From the IMG/VR virus record IMGVR_UViG_3300034101_000324, positions 1-62,649 of that record: 62,649 nt of DNA; one strand, written 5' to 3'. A program made the translations under genes and the position numbers. Source of the stretch: a virus. This document shows, one piece after another, positions 8,447-16,124 of the stretch; the first letter of the stretch is position 1, and every line of letters begins with the position of its first letter. The notes under the pieces were generated by a model. That model worked only from the letters and a program-made list of their open reading frames with translations, did no database searches and was not told where the DNA came from.

Positions 8447-9706
8447 TTATTCTTTGACCATCACCTTGCGACCATGCGGCGGGGTGAACCCACGGCTCTG
8501 CGTTACAAGCCACAGCGTCGGGCAAGCAACGTCCCACTTAACATTCGGCTCCACGTGGCCGTCCGTGAACACGATCACACCGTCTGCATCAATGTGTCGC
8601 TCGTTCATGTACTCGCTCACACAAGAGACGCGAGTGCCGCCACCACCCACAGGCTTGAGCAACGTGGCGATGTTGGCGTAGTTCTCAATCTCAAACCGCT
8701 GCTCTGCGTGAACGCGAGTGTCCCACCACAGCACGATGACCGACTCTGGTGGATACAACTCACACAGGTTGGAGATACGCGCTGCAACGCGGGCGATCTG
8801 CTTATCGTCGATGCTGCCTGACGTGTCGATGGCAAACACCATGCGACCCACCGTCTCGCTGTACGGGGACGGCAGATACAAGTCATCAGCCAAGCGGCGA
8901 CGATTCAGACGCGAGTACGTGTACTCGTCCACGCCACGCATGACGCCAGACCAGAAGTCATCAAGCACATCAGACCATGCGATCTCCGGCTCCATCTGAT
9001 CCTTGATTACGCGAGGGATGTCTACACCAAACTTCCCTGCCAAGAGGCCGCCCTGCTGCAAGCCTTCGTTGATCTTGCGCTCCAGTTCGCGCTGCTGATC
9101 TGGCGTGAGTTTGTTACCACCCTTGCCATCCTTGCCGTCCTGACCCTCGTAGTCGTGCTTGTCGAGCGGCTGACCACGCTGCTGCGTACCCTTGTTACCC
9201 GACTTCTTGGGCAGACCCGGATCGCTCGGCTGATTTTTCGGCTGCTTCTCACGCTCCTGCCAGAGATAGTCAAAGACTTGTCTCACCGACCAGTCATGGA
9301 ACATCGGATCATACAGACCACCGTCCGGCAACTTGGCTAGTGTCTTGTCCTTGAGATTCATGATCACATCGTTGACCACGAAATCCATCGCTACGTTGGC
9401 TAACATCGGATCCTTTGACGCCAAGTCCTTGTGACGTGGGATATGCTTGAGCAACTTGTGCAGATTCTCATGCAGCACAAGGCCACACGTCTCTTCAAGT
9501 GTCAGGCCATTCAAAAACTCCCTGCCGTAGTACGTGTTCAGCCCATCGGTACAGGCCGTAGGTATGTTGTCATCTCCATCGACGATCTTGGTATCGCCTA
9601 GAAGAATGATGCCCGAATACAGGCACGTCTCGGGATGACGCATCAATCGGATGTGCGCCTTCTTCAACTTCAACTCTGCATCCATAACTTGAACTGCTGC
9701 GTTCAT
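8447..9706 (-). CDS. Zincin-like metallopeptidase plus VWA domain protein
   Basis: A 419-aa protein with two modules. Residues 1-150 contain H79-E80-N-L-H83 (LVLHENLHKLL), a zinc-peptidase HExxH site, in a context resembling the DUF2201 putative metallopeptidase domain. Residues 155-200 are a Gly/Lys/Gln linker. Residues 285-419 are VWA-like with a MIDAS D294-T-S-G-S298 (VFAIDTSGSID), a later Thr (GGGGTRVS) and Asp (VIVFTDGH). Such proteins pair with MoxR AAA+ ATPases, which remodel or insert metals into client proteins. The AAA+ partner is two genes upstream. The client in the infected cell is unknown. Confidence 0.85.
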   Translation of the reverse strand: MNAAVQVMDAELKLKKAHIRLMRHPETCLYSGIILLGDTKIVDGDDNIPTACTDGLNTYYGREFLNGLTLEETCGLVLHENLHKLLKHIPRHKDLASKDPMLANVAMDFVVNDVIMNLKDKTLAKLPDGGLYDPMFHDWSVRQVFDYLWQEREKQPKNQPSDPGLPKKSGNKGTQQRGQPLDKHDYEGQDGKDGKGGNKLTPDQQRELERKINEGLQQGGLLAGKFGVDIPRVIKDQMEPEIAWSDVLDDFWSGVMRGVDEYTYSRLNRRRLADDLYLPSPYSETVGRMVFAIDTSGSIDDKQIARVAARISNLCELYPPESVIVLWWDTRVHAEQRFEIENYANIATLLKPVGGGGTRVSCVSEYMNERHIDADGVIVFTDGHVEPNVKWDVACPTLWLVTQSRGFTPPHGRKVMVKE

Positions 9707-11978: not shown

Positions 11979-12007
11979 ATTATAACATAAGTTGCTATTT
12001 AAGTCAA
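11979..12007 (-). promoter_or_regulatory. Sigma-70 type promoter P3 (leftward)
   Basis: On the minus strand, -35 TTGACT (12007-12002), a 17-nt spacer and -10 TATAAT (11984-11979), with an extended TGTTATAAT. The predicted start is near 11972. The -35 begins just after the stop of gene 12012-12296. It is very similar to the promoter at 13280-13308, including AGTGG(A/G)AATT downstream. Confidence 0.85.
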
Positions 12008-12011
12008 CAGT

Positions 12012-12296
12012 TCAAGCAAACAAAAAGAACAACACCGCACCCGTAAGTGCGGTAACGAACCCATAGGCAAAGCCTAGTTTGAACACCTTCTTACCGAACT
12101 TGACCGCAGCCTCGTCAATCTCGGGCTTGATGCTGTTGGTGAATTCCTCCACCACCTCGTCCATTAACTCACGCTTGATCGCTGCACGCATCGACTGCTC
12201 ACGCAACAGGCGTAACTCTTCCTCGTCACGCTGTTGATCCGCGTGCCACTGGGCTTGATCGTCGGTAAACCATTCTTCGTCTCTTGTTTTAGCCAT
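12012..12296 (-). CDS. C-terminally membrane-anchored protein, 94 aa
   Basis: A 94-aa protein. Residues 1-60 are highly charged and helical (EEELRLLREQSMRAAIKREL). Residues about 70-94 form a hydrophobic tail anchor (AYGFVTALTGAVLFFLFA). The topology suggests an inner-membrane protein with a cytoplasmic N-domain. The start at 12296 follows AAGGAGGTGTGAC. It ends the short operon begun by the 13280-13308 promoter. The function is unknown. Confidence 0.72.
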   Translation of the reverse strand: MAKTRDEEWFTDDQAQWHADQQRDEEELRLLREQSMRAAIKRELMDEVVEEFTNSIKPEIDEAAVKFGKKVFKLGFAYGFVTALTGAVLFFLFA

Positions 12297-12297
12297 G

Positions 12298-12426
12298 TCA
12301 CACCTCCTTAATCGTCCACTTGATTCGCGGGTTCATACGCTTGCGCCCCGTCCAATACGGCACAGCCCACTCGGTATCTGTCTCCACACAAATCAGCCGC
12401 TTGCCCAAATACACTTCCATCCTCAT
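12298..12426 (-). CDS. 42-aa basic hypothetical protein
   Basis: ATG at 12426 behind GGAGGG, TGA at 12298. The peptide begins MRMEVYLGKRLICVETDTEW and ends RMNPRIKWTIKEV; it is small, basic and predicted beta-rich. It overlaps the upstream zinc-ribbon gene by ATGA and lies 1 nt from the next start, so translation is well supported by context. No family recognised. Confidence 0.62.
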   Translation of the reverse strand: MRMEVYLGKRLICVETDTEWAVPYWTGRKRMNPRIKWTIKEV

Positions 12427-12644
12427 CGGTAAAACCCTCCCTTGTTGTTGATACCTTTCAAGTCCTCAAGGTTAGTCACCTTGATGTAGTTGCTCTTGTG
12501 CATCGGCACGACCGTATGTTTGACCTGACGGGCATACTCCTGCCCGCAAGGTAGGCACGAACCGAATCCCGCCATGACCCTGCGTGGATCAACTGGGGTG
12601 TACATACCTTTGGTCACGCACGCTCGGCAAAAATAGGTACTCAT
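12423..12644 (-). CDS. Small zinc-ribbon protein, 73 aa
   Basis: A 73-aa protein with two CxxC knuckles, C6-x2-C9 and C30-x2-C33 (YFCRACVTKG; FGSCLPCGQEY), the pattern of a four-cysteine zinc ribbon, followed by a basic region. It may bind nucleic acid or RNA polymerase. The ATG at 12644 is selected by the adjacent AGGAAGGAGG; the frame runs back to 12695 only through palindrome site 6. It is the first gene after the long structured leader. Confidence 0.72.
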   Translation of the reverse strand: MSTYFCRACVTKGMYTPVDPRRVMAGFGSCLPCGQEYARQVKHTVVPMHKSNYIKVTNLEDLKGINNKGGFYR

Positions 12645-12655
12645 CCAAGCCTCCT

Positions 12656-12672
12656 TCCTGACGCTGTCAGGA
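12656..12672. promoter_or_regulatory. Palindrome TCCTGAC-GCT-GTCAGGA, site 6
   Basis: A perfect copy. On the minus strand its end (AGGA) merges with the AGGAGG ribosome-binding site of the zinc-ribbon gene, 12 nt before the ATG. If it folds in RNA or binds protein it could occlude the ribosome site. Confidence 0.85.
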
Positions 12673-12789
12673 CTATCGTTGATACAACTAAACACCCACG
12701 CGACCTCGGGGTTACCAAGGCCGCTAGGCTGCTCACTCGCTCATCGCGGCTCACAACTTTGTAGGCAGATACTCGGAGCTACACGACAG

Positions 12790-12806
12790 TCCTGACGTTG
12801 TCAGGA
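12790..12806. promoter_or_regulatory. Palindrome TCCTGAC-GTT-GTCAGGA, site 7
   Basis: A perfect copy, extended to 8-bp arms by G and C. It is inside the long leader between the 13280-13308 promoter and the zinc-ribbon gene. Confidence 0.84.
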
Positions 12807-13217
12807 CAAGTTATGGTTCACACTCCTACCGCTGCCGGACATACATTGCCTGTCCGTACCGGCTATGGATCGCGGGTCTAGCCTTTCGCCGCTCTGACCG
12901 TACTCTGCACTTCACCTACGGTTTTACACTCCGCACAGGACTATCCGTGTCCTTACCGCTTGGCTTCGCAGTCGCCCATCCGTCACCGCCCCACCTCGCT
13001 CGTAATAAATACGGTCAACATGGGATTGATATGGCTGACAGAATTTACAGGCCGCAAACTACTCAACGACTTGTCACCTAGGCGATCCTATGTGCAGTCT
13101 CGTACTGCACCACGACCCCGATTGATACTCGGAGCACCGCTGTTTGTCAGACAGCGTCACGGCTCTGCCACCGCGCCTTCACCTACTATCGGCTTACGAC
13201 TTGTAGGATCGTTGTTG

Positions 13218-13234
13218 TCCTGACACCGTCAGGA
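13218..13234. promoter_or_regulatory. Palindrome TCCTGAC-ACC-GTCAGGA, site 8
   Basis: A perfect copy, extended to 8-bp arms. It lies about +39 to +55 from the predicted transcription start of the 13280-13308 promoter, directly after the nested hairpin at 13238-13269. Confidence 0.86.
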
Positions 13235-13279
13235 CTCGTGGAACCCGCCTCGTTTGGCGAAATTTCCACTATAGACTAT

Positions 13280-13308
13280 ATTATAACAAATGTAGTCTTT
13301 TAAGTCAA
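13280..13308 (-). promoter_or_regulatory. Sigma-70 type promoter P2 (leftward)
   Basis: On the minus strand, -35 TTGACT (13308-13303), a 17-nt spacer and -10 TATAAT (13285-13280), with extended TGTTATAAT. The predicted start is near 13273. It drives the structured leader and the three small genes down to 12012, with read-through towards the MoxR unit possible. Confidence 0.85.
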
Positions 13309-15554: not shown

Positions 15555-16124
15555 ATGACTGATACGGCGCTTGTTCCAGAGATCGACGAGAACATCCCGC
15601 TGCCCGCTAACGCGGCTGAAGCCTTGCCTGAATTGTCTGCCGAGGCAGAGATCCAGATGCGGGCCCGCACCATAAAGTTGATCTCAGATTTAACAGGTAT
15701 ACCCCTTGTCCCAACTGAGCAGGACAAGGACGAAGCCGAGAAGTTGGCTCGTCAGATGATCGAAGATCCTAAGAAGCGCATTGAGTTTAGTAAGTATCCG
15801 AACGAAACAATGGCATGGCTAGCCGGTATGGTGCAGCAAAGCAACTGTTCGCTCGTAGATGACCTTTCTGAATACAAAAATTACGTGATTAATAGGCTTG
15901 TTTCTGAGATTGAAACGACAGCCGATGCCAAAATTCGTGTGCAAGCCCTCACAAAGCTTGGCGAAGTAGACGGTGTGGACGCATTTAAGAAGCGTACAGA
16001 GACCACACACATTATTAAGCCCATCGAAGAGGTCGAAAAAGAGCTTTTGTCGGTACTAGAAGGCATTGAATACAAGGTTTTGGAAGATAAAACCGAAATA
16101 CCCGTGCAGAATCAATGCAATTAA
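15555..16124 (+). CDS. terS: Probable terminase small subunit
   Basis: A 189-aa acidic, helical protein immediately upstream of the large terminase and overlapping it by 10 bp, the usual place of the DNA-recognition small subunit. The C-terminus contains HIIKPIEEVEKELLSVLEGIEYKVL, counted here as residues 150-174, which could form the oligomerisation or large-subunit contact. No clear HTH is seen. There is no Shine-Dalgarno sequence before ATG 15555, only an A/T-rich tract, so translation may be from a short or nearly leaderless transcript. Confidence 0.65.
   Translation: MTDTALVPEIDENIPLPANAAEALPELSAEAEIQMRARTIKLISDLTGIPLVPTEQDKDEAEKLARQMIEDPKKRIEFSKYPNETMAWLAGMVQQSNCSLVDDLSEYKNYVINRLVSEIETTADAKIRVQALTKLGEVDGVDAFKKRTETTHIIKPIEEVEKELLSVLEGIEYKVLEDKTEIPVQNQCN

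Follow-up and report, generated by a model that had tools for sequence, protein, structure and literature searches.

Few RNA classes of the size and complexity of GOLLD, ROOL and OLE are known in bacteria and phages, and the functions of these three remain poorly understood; homo-oligomeric RNA assembly is a feature of all of them, and GOLLD and ROOL are often located near phage tRNA genes. GOLLD is a large, phage-borne structured RNA of unknown function with conserved domain(s) and a variable part, while ROOL, about 600 nt long and found in phages or prophages, adopts a complex multibranched fold and has no known protein partner (PMC12286853). OLE, again about 600 nt, has highly conserved nucleotides between its helices (PMC9723947). 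In phage ICP1, an ORF-less region between gp139 and gp140 yields an abundant transcript of about 800 nt, seen by RNA-seq and likened to GOLLD and ROOL (PMC7567579).

A large RNA locus beside the terminase genes

The 62.6-kb phage record analysed here (the window, meaning this whole stretch of 62,649 nucleotides) has a rightward terminase/portal operon starting at 15555 and leftward early-type operons below 15200. Reading leftward, a promoter is followed by about 600 nt without a conserved ORF and by three small genes. A terminator-like hairpin comes next, then a second promoter for an operon made up of a 300-aa gene and the genes of an AAA ATPase and of a VWA/DUF2201 protein. The initial annotation of this DNA had described a near-consensus promoter ahead of a hairpin-rich leader lacking any credible ORF; the promoter holds up, with 11 of 12 consensus matches at 13308-13280 and a TG ahead of its -10 box, and we infer a predicted transcript start near 13273. 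The RNA region, on the minus strand from 13273 to about 12689, is GC-rich and without a conserved ORF. The elements of the locus are:

13280-13308, minus strand: sigma70-type promoter TTGACT-17-TATAAT with extended -10, driving the RNA; the type recurs at 12007-11979
13238-13269, minus strand: nested hairpin at the 5' end of the transcript (GTGGAA..TTCCAC), in the minimum-energy fold; lineage-specific
13218-13234, no strand assigned: copy of the palindrome TCCTGAC-N3-GTCAGGA, within the transcript and outside the conserved core
12689-13212, minus strand: core of the large structured RNA, from the CGA box to GUGUUUA; 524 nt in the window, 406-589 nt in homologues
13064-13212, minus strand: 5' conserved domain, comprising helices P2-P6 together with the 5' strands of P7 and P8 (A1 alignment and fold, model R1)
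12867-13088, minus strand: long-range stem P7 (13088-13084 with 12871-12867), supported by compensatory pairs, plus P8, closing the variable domain
12878-13065, minus strand: internal variable domain, 85-188 nt across members, carrying lineage-specific palindromes in several of them
12689-12868, minus strand: 3' conserved domain with helices P9-P13 and the invariant GAGUAUCUGCCUA and GAGUGARCARCCUAG (A2 alignment and fold, model R2)
12790-12806, no strand assigned: copy of the same palindrome in a variable loop of the 3' domain
12656-12672, no strand assigned: copy of the same palindrome between the RNA and the first gene
12423-12644, minus strand: gene for a small CxxC...CxxC protein, first after the RNA in this phage (ORF list)
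12298-12426, minus strand: 42-aa ORF (ORF list)
12012-12296, minus strand: gene for a 94-aa protein with a hydrophobic C-terminus, closing the small-gene unit (ORF list)
12033-12054, minus strand: terminator-like hairpin with a T-rich tail at the end of the RNA/small-gene unit (from sequence)
11979-12007, minus strand: second promoter, of the same type as the first, serving the operon of the 300-aa gene, AAA ATPase and VWA protein (from sequence)

The CxxC protein has no match in PHROGs or Pfam. The protein encoded at 8447-9706, beside the AAA ATPase, has HNH endonuclease as the name of its PHROG match (phrog_1314), a name that looks wrong: Pfam assigns it a DUF2201 metallopeptidase-like and a VWA domain.

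The new RNA shares with GOLLD its size, phage location, structured nature, unknown function and mixture of conserved and variable parts; it differs in lacking both a covariance match (at E up to 10) and a tRNA neighbourhood, in placing its 5' and 3' conserved domains on either side of an internal insert, and in heading an early-type operon beside the terminase genes. Its length of about 600 nt, phage setting, complex fold and absence of a known protein partner recall ROOL, from which it is set apart by the absence of a covariance match and of a tRNA island and by its other conserved motifs. Length and conserved nucleotides between helices are also shared with OLE, which however is bacterial, mostly from Bacillota, and has protein partners, and again there is no covariance match. 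The ICP1 transcript is comparable as a long ORF-less phage region, although it belongs to another phage and another position and has been seen by RNA-seq; this likeness does not involve a sequence comparison.

Could covariance models nevertheless have missed a divergent member of GOLLD, ROOL, OLE or HEARO, or a self-splicing intron? In favour are the comparable size, the location in a phage and the ornate fold, as well as the conserved domains around a variable linker, an architecture that recalls GOLLD and ROOL (PMC12286853). However, cmscan against Rfam 15 found nothing at gathering thresholds in the window and 16 homologue loci, and only unrelated chance matches at E up to 10 in three divergent members (the window, L124 and L126); the GOLLD, ROOL and OLE models, the first two of which had been suggested as precedents at the outset, gave no match, and membership of these families is not supported. 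There are no tRNA genes in the window or in 17 homologue-bearing loci, and group I and II introns and the other listed ribozymes have no Rfam match here, the RNA being intergenic with no interrupted gene. Membership of a known class is thus already disfavoured, and we regard it as very unlikely. We propose instead, at a probability of roughly two in three, that the locus specifies a large structured noncoding RNA of a new class, carried by an uncultured group of tailed phages and acting in trans during infection, with the proviso that trans action and a discrete transcript are inferred in the absence of expression data. That it would belong to no existing family and stand as a class of its own among the known kind of large structured RNAs from phages is strongly supported at the level of sequence because homologues, compensatory base changes and the lack of an Rfam match even at E up to 10 concur, which favours the new class that the initial annotation had ventured. 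The RNA has the characteristics of the kind, being several hundred nucleotides long, non-coding, phage-encoded and of covarying structure, and we found no earlier description of it in the literature, our coverage of which was partial.

Homologues, absence of coding and a conserved fold

Homologues of the RNA are present in 33 IMG/VR contigs at 60-90% identity over 400-590 nt, and pattern scans seeded with several conserved blocks all converge on these same 33. Some distant loci fetched through neighbouring proteins carry the noncoding region at 64-71% identity. A profile search recovered 43 loci, 23 of them nonredundant (one partial), and 22 nonredundant sequences make up the covariation alignment. 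All share a core architecture in which a variable insert of 85-188 nt separates a 5' from a 3' domain, 406-589 nt in total, with the conserved stretches AAGGCG..TGG..AGAG, GACAAGTCG, AGCCG.TACGG, CCGGCAGCG, GAGTATCTGCCTA and GAGTGARCARCCTAG. The search covered IMG/VR, cultured phages, plasmids and GTDB genomes, larger metagenome contig sets lying outside the scan. Direct DNA similarity to cultured phages and plasmids was limited to chance matches or none, and of two pattern scans of GTDB genomes one was empty and the other gave nine matches, all rejected by the profile. Covariance models R1 and R2 detected no remote versions in 80 related early-operon loci and none in two isolate relatives. 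Weak R1 scores in four loci (L170, L165, L180 and L179; E of about 0.05-0.1) are taken as chance: the pattern that retrieved these loci had itself come from the R1 region, and none is significant with the sequence profile. All carriers of the RNA belong to one phage group. Judged by terminase, the nearest isolates are phages from lakes, marine phages and phages of Pelagibacter, at about 50% identity.

The region does not code for protein: every one of the six frames is interrupted in 22 of 22 homologues, mismatches among homologues follow no codon phase, and the majority of indels have lengths not divisible by three. The claim that no credible ORF is present holds across these homologues, and codon-periodic conservation, which would have refuted a structural RNA, is not seen in the mismatches.

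What is conserved is the fold. The window had been described as rich in short stems, in agreement with which its minus strand, flanks included, folds better than 20 of 20 shuffles (z -5.5) and more stably than the plus strand (z -2.6); palindromes add to the first score, the conserved core alone giving a weaker -2.8. In each of the 12 homologues tested, the fold of the sense strand is more stable than that of the antisense strand. The consensus fold of the 22 sequences has 66 pairs in 13 helices with 97.9% of cells paired, and in 40 of these pairs double compensatory changes occurred with pairing kept, as opposed to 4-8 double-change pairs and 33-45% pairing in a control in which partners were slid by 1-3 columns. 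Since this alignment had itself yielded the fold, we also simulated 40 null alignments, preserving the tree and the per-column substitution count, and refolded each one: these contained 4.5 +/- 2.3 double-change pairs (maximum 12) versus the 40 observed, with energies of -26.9 +/- 3.3 versus -84.4. The covariation among collected leaders that the initial annotation had named as a check is thus present, and in a separate R-scape-like test with a phylogenetic null, the strongest covarying pairs are pairs of the fold. Taken separately, the 5' domain has double changes in 17 of 32 pairs (A1 fold) and the 3' domain in 16 of 29 (A2 fold). P7, which spans the variable insert, has them in 4 of 5 pairs with 99% of cells paired; the insert itself could not be aligned reliably and is excluded from all claims. 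Base pairing is therefore under purifying selection, as the computation shows. After the last helix, most members become U-rich (the first 10 nt are 64% T, versus 17-25% further on), which would fit a 3' end with partial read-through; the signal is weak in the window. Along with the promoter, it lends no more than indirect support to the accumulation of a discrete transcript.

These data also bear on a DNA-level explanation, namely that the region is an operator array or a replication origin whose palindromes merely give apparent hairpins. The phage does contain 12 exact copies of TCCTGAC-N3-GTCAGGA (between 6968 and 15181), two of them inside the region, but palindromes lie outside the conserved core or in variable loops and their sequences differ between lineages, while strand-specific folding, long-range helices and compensatory changes that include G-U pairs would not be expected from a function of the DNA itself. 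Covariation already contradicts this explanation, to which we give almost no credence.

Genomic slot, promoters and mode of action

In every member with flanking sequence, the RNA occupies one slot, with the divergent TerS/TerL genes on one side and the CxxC gene on the other, and has the orientation of the leftward operon; the CxxC gene is near in every member whose locus reaches far enough downstream. Members differ in which sequence and which first gene come after the RNA, and the spacing between RNA and CxxC gene lies anywhere between about -40 and 430 nt. The promoters are not constant either: in the clade of the window, sigma70-type promoters precede both the RNA and the next operon, and a large RNA-bearing clade, in which the RNA core is kept, has GGAAC-N18-TCTAA in both places instead, at constant spacing. 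Shuffling predicts 0.8 matches to this pattern in total over seven loci, most of which have 2-3, all leftward. In its sequence the motif resembles sigma-E/ECF-type promoters, the -35 element being GGAACTT in E. coli and the -10 element CGTCTAAH in Neisseria (PMC2893595). No sigma-factor domain was found in eight phage records of this clade, suggesting that a host ECF sigma factor may be used. The motif stands at positions 2621, 4026 and 5415 of locus L109, with equivalents in about 25 RNA-bearing loci, before the RNA and usually before the next leftward operon. A conserved GGGAAC...TCTAAC block upstream of the RNA had been considered as part of it and is now read as a promoter, because it recurs with exact spacing before other operons.

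Close relatives (proteins about 84% identical) lack the RNA and keep the promoter and operon with a short leader, using sigma70-type promoters at both places. In a tree of the AAA protein, the RNA is present in 12 of 12 members of one clade and in a pair (the window and L010) nested among RNA-less phages, which implies at least two gains or losses; the tree cannot decide between gain and loss.

The rival to be weighed here is a long cis-acting 5' leader that would control the CxxC, 42-aa and 94-aa genes, whether through antitermination, by sensing a ligand or by processing of the RNA. The RNA is always upstream of and co-oriented with the same operon, for which reason a cis leader is not excluded; it shares a promoter with that operon, and in the window no clear intrinsic terminator, let alone a strong one, separates it from the first gene. 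Yet the downstream sequence and the distance to the CxxC gene vary, relatives carry the same operon without the RNA, no expression platform is conserved near the start codon, and a terminator-like hairpin and second promoter precede the main operon, so that antitermination would reach only the three small genes. Constant association with one gene together with a conserved expression platform, as required of a cis leader or riboswitch, is not met. The regulation of three small genes that had been envisaged for the leader is accordingly disfavoured, and we consider a cis-acting leader unlikely. Computation establishes the homology, the non-coding nature and the fixed position of the RNA, and that it is tied to no single promoter or downstream gene; a portable, self-contained, probably trans-acting RNA is the favoured account, its function being inferred without transcript data.

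We propose that transcription runs leftward, with the RNA at the head of an early-type operon. Its 5' and 3' conserved domains are bridged by the long-range stem enclosing the variable insert, and we infer that a discrete RNA of about 520-600 nt would be released or read through. It could then act in trans during infection, as a folded RNA or an RNP scaffold, as proposed for GOLLD and ROOL. Trans action is inferred because the sequence behind the RNA and its distance to the CxxC gene vary, relatives keep the operon in its absence, the RNA is kept under two promoter types and the next operon has its own promoter. There are reservations: (i), without a clear terminator before the first gene of the window, the RNA may be mainly a 5' leader; (ii), since only one phage group carries it, a constraint on operon expression could mimic independence; (iii), it is invariably co-oriented with one operon and no protein or RNA partner has been identified. 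On balance we lean, if only slightly, towards an undescribed trans-acting phage RNA class with two conserved domains around an exchangeable insert, expressed from a sigma70 or sigma-E-like promoter and possibly forming an RNA-only or RNA-protein assembly in host takeover. As an independent class, its fixed slot, natural presence and absence in close relatives and switch of promoter type would provide a comparative system for function, and the RNA is a sizeable new target for structure prediction and cryo-EM.

Lineage-specific elements

Several features first noticed in the window are real, but not properties of the family. The nested stem at 13238-13269 does appear in the minimum-energy fold; its sequence differs in L010 and L115 and its position is outside the family-wide core. 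The 12-mer GATACTCGGAGC is indeed found twice, at 12768-12779 and 13124-13135, the exact repeat being restricted to the lineage of the window. One copy falls in P5 of the 5' domain and the other in the invariant GAGUAUC region of the 3' domain, two sites that are alike only in that lineage, other members having CCCCAUAUCAA in the 5' domain. The two palindromic hairpins reported within the region (12790-12806 and 13218-13234) exist as well, only they belong to the 12-copy set, are not specific to the RNA and lie outside the conserved helices.

The RNA-less loci L012 (4026-4110), L009 (751-835) and L006 (4275-4356) share another short element in the leader position, AAGGTT/GAGGTTT..GGGTTTCGTAG, flanked by complementary arms and without an Rfam match, possibly a second small structured RNA.

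Each lineage looked at (the window, L109, L117, L131, L127, L126, L010 and L012) has its own palindrome of 16-17 bp, which occurs 4-13 times in the early region and in which the arms are invariant while the 2-3 nt at the centre vary; CGTATTA-N2-TAATACG, CGTATCA-N2-TGATACG, GCCACTA-N2-TAGTGGC and GCCATTA-N2-TAATGGC occur at similar places in relatives. These palindromes resemble the operators or stoperators of a dimeric regulator whose specificity differs from lineage to lineage.
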